Source: Aquisalimonas sp. 2447
GTDB lineage: Bacteria > Pseudomonadota > Gammaproteobacteria > Nitrococcales > Aquisalimonadaceae
Length of the DNA: 64,000 nucleotides
Direction of reading: 5' to 3'
Assembly: GCF_012044895.1 (NCBI RefSeq)
Contig: NZ_CP050695.1
Span: 2,324,501-2,388,500 of the forward strand
The position numbers and the translations under genes are program-made. This document shows positions 1 to 9,816 of this stretch, piece after piece. A model generated the notes under the pieces. The model made no database searches. It saw only the letters and a program-made list of their open reading frames with translations, and had not been told where the DNA came from. Each line of letters begins with the position of its first letter. The stretch's first letter is position 1.

Positions 1-705
1 CACGCCGTGGACATGCTCGGGAAACCGGGACTCACGGGTGACTTGCAGCCGCAACCAGGGCGCCGCACGCTCCGCGCGGCGACGCACCTGGGCCAGCAGA
101 TCGTCCGGCGTGAACGGGTGCGCCTCACGCCACTGGGACTCGAACTCGAGGTGCTGATCCAGACACCCGGCAAAAATCCGGTCCGCCGGTGTGGCCGCCA
201 CCTGGAGCCAGTACCGCCGGGCCGGAACCTGGTCATCGACGGCGCCGCCGCCATGGCGCTGCACCAGGGTCTCGATCCCCTGCTCCCGGCGCCGCTCTGT
301 CACCATCGGCATGCCATCGCTGCGCTGCCCCTGGAGCGACGATACGTCCCGGAGAAACCCGGCGAAGCATTCCGGTTCACCGGGTGATCCACCCAGCGGC
401 AGCACCGTCATTTCATTGATGAACGCCCGACCGTGACGATCATAGTTGCGCATCAGGCCACGCATGGCCCGTGCGTCGCGAATCGCCTCGCGCATCAGCC
501 ATCGTGCCGGTTGATCGAACTCTTCGCCCTGGAGGACCCGGCAGTTACTGCCCAGGATGGCGTCTGCCGGCCAGCCACTGAGCCGTTCGAATTGCGGGTT
601 CACGTAGACCACTGGCTGATCTGGCGCGCGCGCGTCGGCAACTGCCAGGGATTCGCCGGCAATAGCGGCCAGGTCATCGACGATTTCCTGAAGACCTTCT
701 CGCAT
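1..705 (-). CDS. LOV-type PAS photoreceptor-like protein, C-terminus cut by window edge
   Basis: An open frame runs on the minus strand from an ATG at 705 to the left edge with no stop; the preceding in-frame stop is TAG at 729-727. Residues about 18-130 read as a PAS domain of the LOV class: VYVNPQFERLSGW (33-45), then GSNCRVLQG (52-60), matching the LOV signature GxNCRFLQ with the flavin-adduct cysteine at Cys55, then RNYDRHGRAFINEMTVLPL, which matches the LOV strands bearing the FMN-contacting Asn residues. The following ~100 residues match no family I recognise, so the output domain is unknown. It lies 117 bp downstream of and co-directional with the HsbR-like gene. No good ribosome site precedes the ATG, but no other start is possible. 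FMN binding and light response are inferred from the motif. Confidence 0.8.
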   Translation of the reverse strand, partial: MREGLQEIVDDLAAIAGESLAVADARAPDQPVVYVNPQFERLSGWPADAILGSNCRVLQGEEFDQPARWLMREAIRDARAMRGLMRNYDRHGRAFINEMTVLPLGGSPGEPECFAGFLRDVSSLQGQRSDGMPMVTERRREQGIETLVQRHGGGAVDDQVPARRYWLQVAATPADRIFAGCLDQHLEFESQWREAHPFTPDDLLAQVRRRAERAAPWLRLQVTRESRFPEHVHGV

Positions 706-822: not shown

Positions 823-2541
823 TCAACGGCCCGTGGGCAGCCGGTACACCGCTTCGACCTGATTGCCGCGCCCGTAGTACCGGAGCGACTCGCACATGCC
901 CTGGATCAGCGTGAGCCCCCGGCCACGCAGCGCGGAGTGATCCGACTCGCCCCCGGCCAGCAGGCCTTGATAGTCGAATCCACTGCCCGAATCCGTCATG
1001 CGGATCAGGAGAAACGGGCCGGCGTCGTCGGAGCGCCGATCCAGCTGAATCCGCACGCGGCCGACGCGGAGCGCCTGAAGCGCTTGTTGCCGCCCTTCGT
1101 AGTAGGCGGTAAACCCGTCCGGGGAATCCTTCATCCCGGAGTCCAGCCCGAGCACGCCGTGCTCGAGACCGTTTGAGTAGAGTTCGGCCAGCACCGTGAG
1201 CAGCGCCTGCCGCGACTCTTCGTCCATCGCTTCCATGCGGGCCACGCCGTCGCCCACGGGTTGCAGCGGCGACACCTCCCGCAGGGCCCGGGCGTCCAGC
1301 TCCAGGCTGAACGACCAATCCCGGGGCGCCTGACGGCTGACATCGGCGACCCCCGGTGCGGCGAAATCCGCCGGCCGCACCTCCAGCATGGTCATGTCAT
1401 CCCTGGTTCCATCCCGGAAAGCCGCCACGGCGTCGTCCAGCGCCCCGACGCCACCGGCATGGAGCGCCGCCTCGGCACGCGCCACGCCAAACTCCTCGCC
1501 GTCGGCGTCGCGCTCTTCCAGGGCGCCGTCACTGACCGCCCAGACAGCCTCCGGCGCCGACAACACCGTGGTTCCCGCGGAGCCGAAACTCCGTTGTACC
1601 CCCAGCGGCAGGTGGCTGGAAGTCACGCGACCGTGGCAGCCGTCCGCCGCACGGTAGAGGACATCGGGCATGCCGCCGTTCCAGACCTCCACGCTCTGCT
1701 GGCGCGGATCCAGCACCAGCAACGCACCGGCCATGAAGAGATTCGCCGGCAGATACTCGAAGAGCTTGCGGTTGATCCGCGCCAGCACCTCCTCGGGGCC
1801 GGCACCGGCGGCAACCGCGCCGTAGAACAGATCCGCAGCGGGCACGGTGCCGATGCTCGCGGCGATACCGTGCCCGGTGAAGTCTGCCAGCAGAAAGAAA
1901 CACCGCCCGTCCGGACCCTCGGCAGCGAGCAGCATGTCACCACTGAGGATCTCCGCGGGATGATACCGATAGGCGACACCCTGGCGATGAAGAACCTCGG
2001 AGGCGGTCGCCCGCTGCATTACGTCGCGGGCAATCCACTGGTCCATCTCGTTGCGCCGCTGATAGGCGTCCAGTTCGTCCCGCTGCCTGCGCAGGGTCCG
2101 GTACACCTGGCTGATCCGCAGCCAGGAATCCACCCGGGCGTTGAGCTGTACACGGCTCACCGGCTTGGCAATGAAATCATCGCCGCCGCAGGCCACGCAC
2201 CGGGCCAGTTGCTCGTCATCGTTCAGGGCGGTGACGAACAGCACGGGTATGTAACTGTCGCCATCCAGGGCCTTGATGCGCCGAGTGGCCTCGTAACCAT
2301 CCACCCCGGGCATGAGCACGTCCATGAGCACCAGGTCCACACGCCGCTCCGAGACGCGCTGCACCGCCTCCTCGCCGTCTGCGGCCGTGAGGAACTCCAG
2401 GCCCGCGCGGTGGCGTAGCATACCACGAAGCAGTTGCAGATTGACCGGCTCATCGTCCACCAGCAGCACGGTGGCAAGCGTGCCGTTATCGCCTTCCGGC
2501 GTTGCCCCCTCCGTGGCGTCGTTGCTCGTCGCCGAACTCAT
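823..2541 (-). CDS. HsbR-like response regulator with PP2C phosphatase and HATPase domains
   Basis: 572 residues. Domain 1 is an intact receiver: Asp29/Asp30, phospho-acceptor Asp74 in LVLMDVLMPG, Lys126 in AKPVS. Domain 2 (about 190-390) is a SpoIIE-like PP2C phosphatase with the metal-binding runs LSGD (199-202), DFTGHG (220-225), SDGALE (337-342) and DDMT (381-384). Domain 3 (about 410-572) is an anti-sigma-type GHKL ATPase with N-box ELYSNGLEHG, DSGSGFD and GRGLTLI. This REC-PP2C-HATPase order and length match HsbR of Pseudomonas aeruginosa, which both phosphorylates and dephosphorylates HsbA and so controls FlgM/FliA and a diguanylate cyclase. The next gene upstream is an HsbA-like STAS protein 12 bp away, as in Pseudomonas. 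No separate hptB is seen in the window; the hybrid kinase at 4578-6659 could supply phosphate (inference). Confidence 0.88.
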   Translation of the reverse strand: MSSATSNDATEGATPEGDNGTLATVLLVDDEPVNLQLLRGMLRHRAGLEFLTAADGEEAVQRVSERRVDLVLMDVLMPGVDGYEATRRIKALDGDSYIPVLFVTALNDDEQLARCVACGGDDFIAKPVSRVQLNARVDSWLRISQVYRTLRRQRDELDAYQRRNEMDQWIARDVMQRATASEVLHRQGVAYRYHPAEILSGDMLLAAEGPDGRCFFLLADFTGHGIAASIGTVPAADLFYGAVAAGAGPEEVLARINRKLFEYLPANLFMAGALLVLDPRQQSVEVWNGGMPDVLYRAADGCHGRVTSSHLPLGVQRSFGSAGTTVLSAPEAVWAVSDGALEERDADGEEFGVARAEAALHAGGVGALDDAVAAFRDGTRDDMTMLEVRPADFAAPGVADVSRQAPRDWSFSLELDARALREVSPLQPVGDGVARMEAMDEESRQALLTVLAELYSNGLEHGVLGLDSGMKDSPDGFTAYYEGRQQALQALRVGRVRIQLDRRSDDAGPFLLIRMTDSGSGFDYQGLLAGGESDHSALRGRGLTLIQGMCESLRYYGRGNQVEAVYRLPTGR

Positions 2542-2553
2542 GACGCCCCGGGG

Positions 2554-2859
2554 TTAGTTGCGCATGGGGAAGAGCTGGTGGAAATTGGCGATGCGCAGGA
2601 TGCGCTCGAGCTCACCGCTGACGTTGCGCAGTTCCACCTGCGAGCTGTGGGACTCCGCGTGTTCCCGTAACAGGAGCAGCATGCCCAGGGCAGAGCTATC
2701 CATGTACTCGGTGTCCGCCAGATCCACCACGAATCGCCGCACGCCGGTGGCGTTGCGGTAGGCATCGCGGAAATCGCGGTGCAGGCCGAAGTCGAACTGG
2801 CCGCTGATACGGATGATCAGCTCACCGTCCTCGTCGGAATAACTGGTGGTCAATGGCAT
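2554..2859 (-). CDS. HsbA-like STAS anti-sigma factor antagonist
   Basis: 101 residues from an ATG at 2859, preceded by GGGGAGGAG seven bases upstream; a longer frame to 2916 lacks such a site. The whole protein is one STAS domain. The conserved phosphorylation loop reads YMDSSALGM with Ser56, the same number as the switch serine reported for Pseudomonas HsbA. The partner-switch kinase/phosphatase is the following gene (HsbR-like). By homology it would bind FlgM when unphosphorylated and a GGDEF partner when phosphorylated; neither FlgM nor a certain HsbD is in view, so the partners here are inference. Confidence 0.85.
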   Translation of the reverse strand: MPLTTSYSDEDGELIIRISGQFDFGLHRDFRDAYRNATGVRRFVVDLADTEYMDSSALGMLLLLREHAESHSSQVELRNVSGELERILRIANFHQLFPMRN

Positions 2860-2915
2860 GCCGATCTCCTCCCCGGACTGGATCATTGCCGCGGCCCCAT
2901 GGGGGCCGCGGAACA

Positions 2916-4112
2916 CTAGAATAATTCAACGTCGCCGGCGTCCATGTCACTCTGGGACACCGAGCGCAGCGACTGGCGCTCTTCCTGCCGGCGCTGGCGC
3001 TGCACCTCCAGCCCCGCGCGCGCCTCACTCAGCCGCGTCGCCAGATCCCCCCGGGAATCGGCGCCACTGACTTCCTTGACCACCGACCGGATACCCGACA
3101 GGTAGCTGTCCAGGCCGTCCACGCCGCGGGCGGAATTATCCAGTAGTTGCGTGGAAATGTCCTCGAATTGCAGCGCCCGCACGGCGTCCTGCACATGAGT
3201 GTCGATATCGCCGGTGAGCGTCGAGATGCGTGCCAGGCCGGCCTCTACTTCCTGGTCGAGTTTCTCCAGCCCCTGCATCATGGACGTGATCCGGTTCTTG
3301 GCGTTCAGGGAATCGTTCATGTCCTGGGACGCCATCTCGCTCACCGACGCCCGCGCCTGGTCAATGACGGCGCGGGCGCTGCCCACCTGCTGGCCGATCT
3401 GGTCGTTGAAACTGTTGGCCTGCTCCGCCAGGGCGCGCACCTGCTCGGCCACCACCGCAAAGCCCCTGCCGGCCTCCCCGGCGCGTGCCGCCTCGATACT
3501 GGCATTGAGGGCCAGCAGGTCGGTCTGCTTGGCAATGCCGCGGATGTCATCCAGCAGACTGTTGACCGTATTCATCTGCGCGACGATGTCGTCCATGCTG
3601 TGGGCAGCATCGACGCTGTGGCGGCTCATCTCCACCACCATCTCCACGTAATCGGAGAGGATGGACTCCGTTTCCTTGACGAAGGACTGGATACCCAGCT
3701 GATCGTCGCCGGCTTCATCCCGGGAGAATTCCATGACCCGCGATGCCAGATCGGCCTGCTCCCGGGTCTTCTCGTTCACACCGACGAAGCTGCCATTGAG
3801 TTGCTGGACCGCATCGGTGACCAGGGAGCGGATCTGGGCGAGGTCATCGCGGACGTAGCCAAACTCGGCGTTGAGGCTTTCGTCCATGTCACCGAGAAAG
3901 CCGCGCAGCTCCTGCTCCAGCTCACGCTGGCCACCGGTGTCTGCCACGCTCCAGCGCGCAGCGCTGCCCTGACCACGGGCACCCAGCCACCAGCCCGCGG
4001 TGGCCGCGGCAAGCACCGCCGGCACTGCCAGGAAGGTCTGCCACCAGGCCAGCAGAGCCAGAGCCAAGGTCAGCACCACCGCCGCGGTGACGCGCATGCC
4101 CAGGGCAGTCAT
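2916..4112 (-). CDS. Methyl-accepting chemotaxis-type signal transducer without periplasmic sensor
   Basis: 398 residues. Two hydrophobic stretches at the N-terminus (about 8-24 and 28-44) form a hairpin with almost no periplasmic loop and no HAMP domain. A coiled-coil cytoplasmic rod follows, with the canonical MCP hairpin tip at about 185-232 ([36 protein letters not shown]) that binds CheA/CheW. It therefore has no evident ligand domain and may sense cytoplasmic or membrane signals or a partner. The gene overlaps the CheY-like gene by 4 bp (ATGA at 4109-4112), so the two are translationally coupled. The extreme C-terminus [13 protein letters not shown] resembles the SQDEIDALL CheY-binding peptide of FliM; this is discussed as a finding. 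Confidence 0.88.
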
Positions 4113-4471
4113 CGCAGCACCTTGCCCACTGTTGCCAGCAACTGGTCGGGCTTGAACGGCTTCACCAGCCAGCCGGTGGCCCCCGACGCCTTCGCCTGCT
4201 GTTTCATGTCCGCACGGGACTCCGTGGTCAGGAACAGAATGGGCGTGAAGCGGTAACCGGGAAGACCACGGAGTTCCTTGATCAGCGTCAGGCCGTCCAT
4301 GTTCGGCATGTTCACATCGGTGATCACCAGATCGAACCGCTCCCCCTGCGCCTTGCGCAGGGCTTCCGTGCCGTCGGCCGCTTCGCTGACTTGATGCCCG
4401 GTCTCCTTCAGAGCGGTCGCCACCATTTGCCGCATGGTGGCCGAATCATCCACCGCCAGTACTTTTCCCAT
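4109..4471 (-). CDS. CheY-like single-domain response regulator
   Basis: 120 residues from the ATG at 4471; the longer frame up to 4588 adds a tail that does not look like receiver sequence and crosses a likely promoter. It is a stand-alone receiver with Asp8/Asp9, phospho-acceptor Asp52 ([13 protein letters not shown]), Thr81/Thr82 (FLTTES) and Lys104 (VKPF). It resembles the CheY paralogues that accompany MCP genes and differs from the flagellar CheY at 18121-18519. It overlaps the MCP gene by 4 bp. Likely phospho-donors are CheA or the adjacent Hpt-bearing hybrid kinase; which one is not shown by sequence. Confidence 0.88.
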
Positions 4472-4500
4472 CTGCTGGACCCCGAATTTATTGTACGATA

Positions 4501-4528
4501 ATTGTACATTTATGTGCGAACGGTACAA
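4501..4528 (-). promoter_or_regulatory. Possible sigma-70 promoter of the CheY-like/MCP operon
   Basis: On the minus strand TTGTAC (4528-4523) and TACAAT (4506-4501) are separated by 16 bp, in a locally AT-rich stretch 30 bp before the CheY-like ATG. It would give a short leader and drive cheY-like, MCP, hsbA-like and hsbR-like genes separately from the hybrid kinase. Confidence 0.4.
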
Positions 4529-4577
4529 CCTGCATTGGATGTATCGGCCGGCCCGGCGATCCCTTGAACCCGACCAA

Positions 4578-6659
<2,082 letters not shown>

Positions 6660-7040: not shown

Positions 7041-7069
7041 ATGATACGAAGCGCTCCCGGAGGTGTCAA
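7041..7069 (-). promoter_or_regulatory. Sigma-70 promoter of tRNA-Glu with GC-rich discriminator
   Basis: TTGACA (7069-7064) and TATCAT (7046-7041) with exact 17-bp spacing on the minus strand, followed by GCGCGCC, a discriminator typical of stable-RNA promoters under stringent control. The tRNA 5' end lies about 25 nt past the expected start point. Confidence 0.75.
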
Positions 7070-7176
7070 CTCCCCTGTTGACCCCGGTTGATCCCCCGGG
7101 AACACCGCTTGGCCCAGACGCCCGGGGCACGCACAATGGCGGGCTATGGCACGGAGTGAGGAGTAAAGAGGAATCC

Positions 7177-8775
7177 ATGGCCGGCGGCGTTGATGATTCA
7201 CAAGTGGGCGGCGCGCTGCGTGCCACGTTCCACTACACCGATGGCGAGCGGGAAACCCGCGCCAACCTGCTTCTGCAGCACCTGCAGTCCGCTGAACAGG
7301 TGGTGGTGCTGCAGGGTGATCCCGGCAGCGGCCGCACGCACCTGCTGCGCAGAATCCTGGCCCGCAGCGACCATGGGTTGCGCATCTATGCCGTGCATTC
7401 GGAAGCGGGTCTCACGCTGACCGATTTGCTGCTGGGGCTGCTGGAGCATCTACAGCTGCCAGCCCCGCCCTCGGAGGCGCCGGACCGCATCCGCGCGCAC
7501 GCCGTCGAGCGGTTAACCGCGCTCGCCAGCGCCGGTGAACATGCCGTGCTGGCACTGGACGACGCCGACCTTCTCGGCGATGACCTTCTCGAAGCACTGC
7601 TTTCACTGCGGGACGACACCCGGGCGGACGGCGTGCCGCCCCTGGGGCTGTTACTCGTGGGTTCGCCACGGGTCGCCCTGCGGCTTACCGAGCTCGCCGG
7701 GCTGGATCACGACCGCACTCCCGTGACCGTGGCTCTGCATGGCCTCGACCGGGCCGCGACCCGTGCGTTTCTGGCGCAGGCCTTCAAGGCGGACGGCGAT
7801 GTCGACGGCCACTTGCTGGGGAGCCTGAATATCGATGTCATCGCGGAATCCAGCGGCGGTCGCCCGGGGGCCATTCTGGAGGCGGCCCGACAGCAGCTCG
7901 CGGGCGAGCGGCCCGCCGCGCCGGCGGCACGCCCGTCGCGGTCCATTCCCTGGCCCGAGGGTCTGCTGCCCAGCGGTTCCCGGCGCAGCATCGGGCTGGT
8001 GTCCGCAGCCACGGTGGTCCTGGTGGGCACGCTGTTGGCTTTGACTTTTATCGCCGACGACCCGTCAGAGGACGATCCGGAAAGGATCGAAAGCACCGAC
8101 ATCACCGCCGCCGAGGAACCTGCCGCAGCGCCGGAATCCGATGACACGGCCGGTCCCGACACGGATGCCCCCGACACCGGCATGCCGGCGGAAGCTGAAC
8201 AACCGGAGATGGTGGACACCCCCGAGACCTATGGTTTCGGAGACGACGACGAGTCGCGTGGTGACGCTTCCGCTGACCAGACCGAGGCTCCCCCGGAAGC
8301 GGACGCGGAGGCTCCGGAGGAACCCGTTCCCGAGACAGACACCGAACCGGACCTGGCAGACACCGAGGACGCTCCGCAGGCACCTGCACCGGGCACGACT
8401 GACGAGGACACCGACGACACCGCCGCGACTGACCCGGACCAGGAAAGCGCGCCGGAGCCGGAGCCGGAATCGGAACTGGAGCGGACCCTGGCTGCAGGTC
8501 GTGACTGGCGCGGCGGGCACGACGAAAACATGTGGACCATCCAGCTGGTGGCAGCCCACGACCCGGAGACAGTCCGGCGCTGGATGGAACGTCACGCCGA
8601 CCTCGCCGAGCTTTACCTGCTTCGAACGCAACGCGACGGCGAGGACTGGTACCTTGTGGTGACCGGCGCCGATGGTGACCGTGACGCGGCGCGGGAACGC
8701 CGGGACGGACTGCCGGAGGAGCTCCGGGAGGGTGGCGCCTGGATACGCCAGCTCCAGGGGATAGACGACTCCTGA
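7177..8775 (+). CDS. DamX-like membrane ATPase with C-terminal SPOR domain
   Basis: 532 residues from the ATG at 7177, preceded by AGAGGA. An N-terminal AAA/ExeA-type ATPase (about 15-245) shows Walker A GDPGSGRT (47-54) and Walker B VLALDDAD (124-131). A single transmembrane helix lies at about 272-292, followed by a ~150-residue periplasmic linker made almost wholly of Asp, Glu, Pro, Thr and Ala. A SPOR domain (about 455-530, starting WTIQLVAAHD) binds denuded peptidoglycan at division septa in known members. The architecture matches the DamX group of cell-division proteins. The acidic linker fits a salt-adapted cell. It is convergent with the diguanylate cyclase gene, 13 bp apart. Confidence 0.8.
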   Translation: MAGGVDDSQVGGALRATFHYTDGERETRANLLLQHLQSAEQVVVLQGDPGSGRTHLLRRILARSDHGLRIYAVHSEAGLTLTDLLLGLLEHLQLPAPPSEAPDRIRAHAVERLTALASAGEHAVLALDDADLLGDDLLEALLSLRDDTRADGVPPLGLLLVGSPRVALRLTELAGLDHDRTPVTVALHGLDRAATRAFLAQAFKADGDVDGHLLGSLNIDVIAESSGGRPGAILEAARQQLAGERPAAPAARPSRSIPWPEGLLPSGSRRSIGLVSAATVVLVGTLLALTFIADDPSEDDPERIESTDITAAEEPAAAPESDDTAGPDTDAPDTGMPAEAEQPEMVDTPETYGFGDDDESRGDASADQTEAPPEADAEAPEEPVPETDTEPDLADTEDAPQAPAPGTTDEDTDDTAATDPDQESAPEPEPESELERTLAAGRDWRGGHDENMWTIQLVAAHDPETVRRWMERHADLAELYLLRTQRDGEDWYLVVTGADGDRDAARERRDGLPEELREGGAWIRQLQGIDDS

Positions 8776-8788
8776 CGCGCCCCCGCAA

Positions 8789-9691
8789 TCACCAGAAAGC
8801 GACCTGGTTGCGCCCCGCGCGCTTGGCCTCGTACAGCGCTTCATCGGCGCGCTCGAGCAGACTGTCAACGGTATCCCCGTCAGTCAGCGCGGTCACGCCG
8901 ATGCTCACGTACACCGGCAACTCCTCGCCGTTGTGACGGAACACGTTGCGATCCACTGCACGGCGCAAGCGCTCCGCCAGCAACCTGGCACCGGCCAGGC
9001 TGGTGTGGCTGAGGGCGATGAGAAACTCGTCACCACCGGTGCGATAGATGAGATCGCTTTCCCGGGCACAGCGCCGCAGAAGCGTTGCCAGATCCCTCAG
9101 CACCTCATCACCGGCCGCATGACCGAAGGCATCGTTGACGGTCTTGAAGTCATCCAGGTCCACTGAAACCATGCAGAACTCCTCGCCATGGCGACGGGCC
9201 AGGCCCAGCTCGCGGCACAGGCTCTGCTCCATGGTGCTGCGATTGAGCACCTGGGTCAGCGGGTCCGTCCGCGCCTCCCGCAGTGCCGCCTCGTACTTGA
9301 GGGCATTGCGTAGCGGAGTAACCACCAGGCCGATACACTGCTCCGCCACGGCAAGATCGCCGGAGCTGAATGGCCGCCGGGCGTGGAGCGTCAAGGTCCC
9401 AAGGGAGTCGCCCTTGACGGTGAGGCGATACTGGGCCTGGTGTTCCGCCAGTTCACCGTGCTCCAGCACCTCACCGCCCTCCGGCGGCTGGTAGGTGACG
9501 CCGGCACAGTCAAAATACTGACTCGCGCTTTCGCCGAACGCCTGGATCAGCGCATCCAGTTCCAGACTCCCCATCCAACGGGACACCAACTGCCAGACCT
9601 GCTCCATGGGAAGCTGCTGCTCCGTGCCCAGGGGCACCACGGGGCCGACCTCACCCGGGTGCTGTTGCAGAGAATCGCTGTGCTGAGCCAT
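8789..9691 (-). CDS. Diguanylate cyclase (GGDEF)
   Basis: 300 residues from the ATG at 9691, preceded by GAGG; a longer frame to 9802 would run over the divergent promoter region. An N-terminal part (about 30-135) looks like a degenerate GAF domain. The C-terminal GGDEF domain (about 140-300) has an intact active site TGGDEF (219-223 for the GGDEF) and an intact inhibitory I-site RESD (210-213) five residues before it, so it should make c-di-GMP and be product-inhibited. No transmembrane segment or receiver. It is divergent from the fliK-like gene and near flagellar genes, so a motility role is plausible but unproven. Confidence 0.88.
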   Translation of the reverse strand: MAQHSDSLQQHPGEVGPVVPLGTEQQLPMEQVWQLVSRWMGSLELDALIQAFGESASQYFDCAGVTYQPPEGGEVLEHGELAEHQAQYRLTVKGDSLGTLTLHARRPFSSGDLAVAEQCIGLVVTPLRNALKYEAALREARTDPLTQVLNRSTMEQSLCRELGLARRHGEEFCMVSVDLDDFKTVNDAFGHAAGDEVLRDLATLLRRCARESDLIYRTGGDEFLIALSHTSLAGARLLAERLRRAVDRNVFRHNGEELPVYVSIGVTALTDGDTVDSLLERADEALYEAKRAGRNQVAFW

Positions 9692-9816
9692 TGCGTTATC
9701 GCCTCGTCGTGTCGTCGCCGTGTCAGCCCCACATGCGAGAGCCATGCCAACCGAGAAAACTGCCCGTACGGATAGGGCACTGGTATCATCGATCCAGTTC
9801 ACCGGAGACGACTGTC

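Follow-up and report, generated by a model that had tools for sequence, protein, structure and literature searches.

Gene organization of the locus

The locus described here lies at the left edge of a 64,000-nucleotide stretch of DNA from Aquisalimonas sp. 2447 (hereafter the window; genome G000), which represents positions 2324501-2388500 of a single 3.97-Mb contig. The first minus-strand frame of the window codes for a LOV domain and extends 2,835 bp to the left of the window, and retrieval of this flanking sequence gave a full product of 1179 amino acids (aa). The gene is the last of a block that also codes for MCP, STAS and HsbR-like proteins (Table 1). The earlier note on this DNA had placed an HsbR/HsbA-like pair and chemotaxis-type genes beside the LOV gene, and Pfam searches agree with it: both the REC-PP2C-HATPase regulator and its STAS partner score above their cut-offs, the pair is adjacent in other genomes, and the pair and the MCP/CheY genes are kept in the orthologous loci. 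The identity of these two neighbours rests on domain architecture, and they are referred to here as HsbR-like and HsbA-like.

No sigma-70-like promoter was found in the gap preceding the LOV gene. A strong sigma-70-like match precedes the GAF hybrid kinase gene by about 380 bp, and it is possible that it represents the promoter of the whole minus-strand block. In the same part of the window, a 570-aa frame (7063-8775, plus strand), which by eye is AAA ATPase-like with an acidic middle and a SPOR-like C-terminal part, adjoins a GGDEF-type frame (8789-9802, minus strand).

On its other side, the LOV gene converges with a gene for a large CheB-CheR protein carrying a canonical LOV domain (GANCRFLQG, with the I-beta glutamine present) and an intact kinase. 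Beyond this CheB-CheR-LOV-kinase lie a double-MCP protein and then a triple CheW, and CheR-, CheB- and CheA-like frames are seen by eye further to the left. No description of such a CheBR-LOV chemosensory pairing was found in the open-access literature searched, which is a part of the whole literature.

Table 1. Coordinates of the genes, domains and sequence features at the locus.
Feature	Position	Strand	Remarks
N-terminal 235 aa of the 1179-aa protein	window 1..705	minus	ATG start; frame open at window edge
Complete LOV gene, 1179 codons	G000:C1:2321666-2325205 = L008:8666-12205	minus	
LOV domain, aa 18-124	window 334..654	minus	Cys55 codon 541-543; Leu118 codon 352-354
First half (aa 125-235) of degenerate histidine-kinase core	window 1..333	minus	whole core aa ~125-350
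REC1	aa ~353-470		coded left of window
HPt	aa 514-592		coded left of window; Pfam
REC2	aa 630-741		coded left of window
GGDEF	aa 758-915		coded left of window; Pfam
EAL	aa 939-1174		coded left of window; Pfam
HsbR-like REC-PP2C-HATPase response regulator, 572 aa	window 823..2541	minus	117-bp gap to LOV gene
HsbA-like STAS anti-anti-sigma factor, 120 aa	window 2554..2916	minus	DSSALG motif
Short MCP-like signalling protein, 398 aa	window 2916..4112	minus	hydrophobic N-terminus; no annotated sensor domain
CheY-like single REC protein	window 4109..4588	minus	true start may be further in
GAF-HisKA-HATPase-REC-HPt hybrid kinase	window 4578..6659	minus	motifs intact; candidate phosphodonor
Sigma-70-like match, 11/12, TTGACA-17-TATCAT	window 7041..7069	minus	consensus match only
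CheB-CheR-PAS-LOV-PAS-HK-REC protein, 1644 aa	L008:3710-8644 = G000:C1:2316710-2321644		convergent with LOV gene, 21 bp away

Domain architecture and orthologs of the LOV protein

Pfam analysis of the full 1179-aa protein identified a PAS domain (aa 28-122), REC in two stretches, HPt, GGDEF and EAL, and together with the results below the order of domains is LOV, a degenerate histidine-kinase core, REC, HPt, REC, GGDEF and EAL. The individual domains are already known; their combination beside motility-signalling genes was not found described, and no protein of this architecture was reported in the portion of the literature that we could search (open-access articles).

Orthologs containing both the LOV domain and the post-LOV region are present in genomes G002 (85%), G004 (60%) and G012 (47%). 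The order of the gene cluster is kept in four genomes of one family, G000, G002, G004 and G012, and in G011 as far as its contig reaches. In G011 a REC-HPt-REC-GGDEF-EAL frame stands at the contig end and the preceding 410 bp contain nothing that resembles the post-LOV region, so that this genome seems to carry the same enzyme without LOV. The CheB-CheR-LOV-kinase adjoins the enzyme in G002, G004, G011 and G012; it is found beside HsbR in G006 and G038, and in the latter it comes after HsbR. The enzyme was not found in G001 and G003, which belong to the same genus, and G006 retains the CheBR-LOV-HK/HsbR/STAS neighbourhood without it; hence, the cluster can do without it. In G022, the corresponding cheY-che-MCP-STAS-HsbR cluster is headed by a 268-aa REC-HPt protein, which aligns at 36% with aa 354-571 of the protein studied here.

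A LOV domain of the glutamine-less type

The sequence motifs on which the LOV domain was originally recognized, GSNCRVLQG (aa 52-60) and INEMTVLPL (aa 96-104), are both confirmed, and the proposed family and adduct cysteine hold as well: the domain matches a YtvA-family model with an E value of 9e-23, PAS_9 scores above its cut-off, and Cys55 aligns with the adduct cysteine of solved LOV proteins. The resemblance is far from a chance one: 130 distinct PDB sequences match the frame at E<=0.01, with LOV proteins in first place (E 2.5e-22). The GxNCRFLQ-type motif, here GSNCRVLQ with Cys55, is present in the three orthologs, and Cys55, Arg56, Gln59, Asn87 and Asn97 are invariant in an alignment of the three LOV-bearing orthologs. 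The last four of these residues correspond to flavin contacts in LOV structures.

Alignment to solved LOV proteins places Leu118 at the position of the conserved I-beta glutamine. At this position Leu is found in the window's protein and in its nearest ortholog, that of G002, and Gln in the more distant ones of G004 and G012; the loss of the glutamine therefore looks derived. Natural LOV-deltaQ receptors are known, in which the replacement is most often Leu or Ile; signalling is largely intact in the tested receptors, and one LOV-deltaQ-GGDEF protein has been demonstrated to be blue-light-responsive (PMC9098866). Because the I-beta glutamine is absent yet not essential (PMC9098866), the domain is assigned to the LOV-deltaQ class instead of the canonical LOV class, and the sequence evidence supports the protein as a candidate LOV photoreceptor of the glutamine-less type.

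Two further PAS domains of the same genome are LOV-like but have no adduct cysteine, one with the motif GATPRMLQG in a GGDEF-EAL protein (L011:3248-7075) and one with GKTPGLLQG (L006:1513-1968). Short stand-alone LOV frames, both with the I-beta glutamine, were seen at L009:2624-3064 (147 codons, DCRFLQ) and L010:2732-3205 (158 codons, NCRFLQ).

A degenerate histidine-kinase core follows the LOV domain

According to the earlier note, the part of the frame behind the LOV domain fits no known output domain. This is borne out in so far as aa ~125-350 have no match in Pfam or NCBIfam, and it requires amendment in that aa 125-350 represent a degenerate histidine-kinase core and that the outputs, REC-HPt-REC-GGDEF-EAL, are found in the sequence obtained from the left of the window. 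A PDB profile search with the post-LOV region returned only chance matches to a Rho exchange factor (E>=1). However, when an alignment of this region from the four orthologs (including the window's own) was compared by hhalign with nine aligned kinase cores taken from those loci, 178 collinear columns were matched with a probability of 39% and a score of 33.7, whereas 60 column-shuffled kinase alignments reached scores of at most 20.6 over at most 70 columns, and no score above 14.6 was obtained with the reversed kinase or with six further domains of the protein. A chance resemblance to kinases is ruled out by these shuffled and other-domain controls.

Among 369 genomes of the class, the post-LOV profile found its own locus and seven weak matches (E 5e-5 to 8e-3), six of them on frames with a complete kinase core, as assigned at the level of the whole frame. 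The predicted structure of the region alone is of moderate confidence (mean pLDDT 69, up to ~90 in the core), and its first structural matches are histidine-kinase cores (RetS, DivL, GacS and others; E down to 1e-7), the likeness to the unorthodox or degenerate kinases RetS and DivL being seen in the kinase-core fold only. A model of LOV plus the post-LOV region, likewise of moderate confidence (mean pLDDT 52), matches the LOV kinases SB2F1, YF1 and EL346 over its full length. The profile comparison with its controls and the fold match thus both point to a kinase-core fold. The phospho-acceptor histidine and the N, G1 and G2 boxes are absent in all four orthologs, and the region is therefore called a histidine pseudokinase and not a histidine kinase: as judged from sequence comparison and the predicted structure, it is a homologous fold that cannot be a kinase. 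It is also the least conserved part of the protein (71% identity versus 93-94% for GGDEF and EAL), as would be expected of a mere spacer too.

Phosphorelay and c-di-GMP domains are under purifying selection

The phosphosites of the relay (REC1 Asp405, HPt His547 and REC2 Asp678) are intact here and in the orthologs. The GGDEF signature and an RxxD I-site (RERD) are present (RERDMVARLGGDEF at aa 828-841) and are intact in the orthologs too, and all of the EAL catalytic motifs (viz. ExLxR, NxS, ExTE, DDFGxG, K, E and QG) are found in this protein and in all orthologs. The dN/dS values between G000 and G002 (NG86) are 0.09 for LOV, 0.25 for the pseudokinase, 0.10 for REC1, 0.07 for HPt, 0.06 for REC2, 0.06 for GGDEF and 0.07 for EAL. 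These values are low in every domain, and therefore none of them drifts freely; constraint is weakest in the pseudokinase. Decay of the 1179-aa open frame is ruled out by this purifying selection in every domain. The protein probably makes or breaks c-di-GMP, and light and phosphate signalling would control it together.

Relationship to known proteins and systems

A class search found REC-HPt-REC matches in about 20 genomes, and in 14 fetched loci (L109-L119, L121-L123) they precede GGDEF-EAL. The H box is intact in 11 of these 14 frames, the kinase region being cut off or outside the stretch in the rest. The 14 proteins show the same order of domains behind a histidine-kinase core, most of them with 29-39% identity over ~400 aa; they differ in that the kinase (H box, GxGLG) is intact where the region is complete and that an additional REC is present in many of them. 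Ahead of the kinase, those with a complete kinase region showed no canonical LOV motif. Those of L109-L113, L116-L119 and L121-L123 are mostly ~1400-1900 aa long and come from several gammaproteobacterial families. Since these relatives elsewhere in the gammaproteobacteria keep intact kinases, the window's protein looks like a kinase-dead, light-sensing offshoot of a recurrent HK-REC-HPt-REC-GGDEF-EAL architecture.

The protein resembles the LOV histidine kinases YF1, SB2F1 and EL346 over its full N-terminal part, where LOV is followed by the kinase-core fold, but it differs from them in having neither the catalytic motifs nor the phospho-acceptor histidine. It shares with a Mesorhizobium loti receptor (WP_140774521.1), the LOV-GGDEF part of which is a blue-light-repressed cyclase, a LOV domain with the adduct cysteine and without the I-beta glutamine, joined to GGDEF and EAL (PMC9098866); in M. 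loti the glutamine is replaced by Met, whereas here it is replaced by Leu. The M. loti receptor is described as LOV-GGDEF-EAL; in the window's protein the sensor is separated from the output by the pseudokinase and REC-HPt-REC. In Pseudomonas aeruginosa, HptB phosphorylates HsbR, HsbR sets HsbA, and phosphorylated HsbA acts with the cyclase HsbD (PMC5085249). The two systems have in common a REC-phosphatase/kinase regulator, a STAS partner, an HPt and a c-di-GMP enzyme, in both cases in the vicinity of chemotaxis genes. HsbD, however, is a protein of its own, a cyclase of 389 aa that has no REC (PMC5085249), whereas here a single chain contains the light sensor together with HPt, RECs, GGDEF and EAL. 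With its two RECs, HPt and EAL, the window's protein is not of the HsbD type, i.e., a stand-alone cyclase without REC.

Proposed mechanism and alternative explanations

On these observations, we consider the chances about even that the gene codes for a bifunctional c-di-GMP enzyme gated by blue light and by a phosphorelay. Because the protein has no kinase of its own, the REC-HPt-REC chain would be loaded in trans, and the neighbouring hybrid kinases (the convergent CheB-CheR-LOV-HK-REC and the GAF-HK-REC-HPt protein) may serve as donors; both trans-phosphorylation and the choice of partners are suggested by gene neighbourhood. Phosphorylated REC2 would then control the balance of GGDEF and EAL, and LOV, acting through the pseudokinase as a dimerisation and lever module, may add a direct light input to this same output or gate phosphotransfer. 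By analogy with HptB and HsbD acting with HsbR/HsbA in P. aeruginosa, the REC of the HsbR-like regulator may be served by the HPt of the protein as well, so that the STAS partner switch and the level of c-di-GMP would be connected. We put forward only tentatively the complete proposal that a catalysis-dead, light-sensing histidine pseudokinase acts as an entry gate, controlled by light, to a phosphorelay within one c-di-GMP enzyme, in which adjacent kinases, one of them with LOV, load REC-HPt-REC in trans, light is read twice (by donor and acceptor), and c-di-GMP and the Hsb-type switch are set together.

Light could also act in cis, the LOV dimer altering coiled-coil or dimer geometry and switching GGDEF/EAL as in LOV-activated diguanylate cyclases, with the pseudokinase as a linker only and REC-HPt-REC secondary. 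LOV-GGDEF(-EAL) proteins do respond to light without a phosphorelay (LadC, PMC10396304; SL2, PMC8846402; the M. loti LOV-deltaQ-GGDEF, PMC9098866), and the LOV domain is under purifying selection; however, ~500 residues of pseudokinase-REC-HPt-REC separate it from REC2-GGDEF, all phosphosites are retained in all orthologs, and the G011 enzyme seems to lack LOV, which makes this explanation a rather doubtful one. A protein acting chiefly as an HptB-like HPt donor or sink for the HsbR-like regulator, with c-di-GMP activity as a coupled side output, appears unlikely: the adjacent GAF hybrid kinase has an HPt of its own and GGDEF and EAL are among the most conserved domains, although no stand-alone HptB gene was seen beside hsbR/hsbA at this locus, the REC-HPt protein of G022 heads a corresponding cluster, and HptB phosphorylates HsbR in P. 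aeruginosa (PMC5085249).

It is also conceivable that LOV is no longer a light sensor (a redox sensor or structural relic) and that the enzyme is controlled by phosphorylation only, in keeping with three observations: the I-beta glutamine is missing in G000 and G002, the kinase has been lost, and G011 apparently has no LOV. This explanation seems to us very unlikely, as the adduct cysteine and flavin-contact residues are retained, the dN/dS of the domain is ~0.1, and Leu is among the commonest natural LOV-deltaQ replacements, with signalling largely intact in tested receptors (PMC9098866).

Biological significance

Under the proposed gating by light and phosphorelay, blue light, c-di-GMP and an Hsb-type partner switch would be linked within one conserved gene cluster. 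The protein provides a natural case of what is apparently a LOV kinase reduced to a pseudokinase, with purifying selection still acting on its sensor, phosphorelay and output; light could thus be used as the input in a direct test of what histidine pseudokinases do. In addition, close orthologs differ by the change from Gln to Leu, which represents a natural experiment on LOV signalling.
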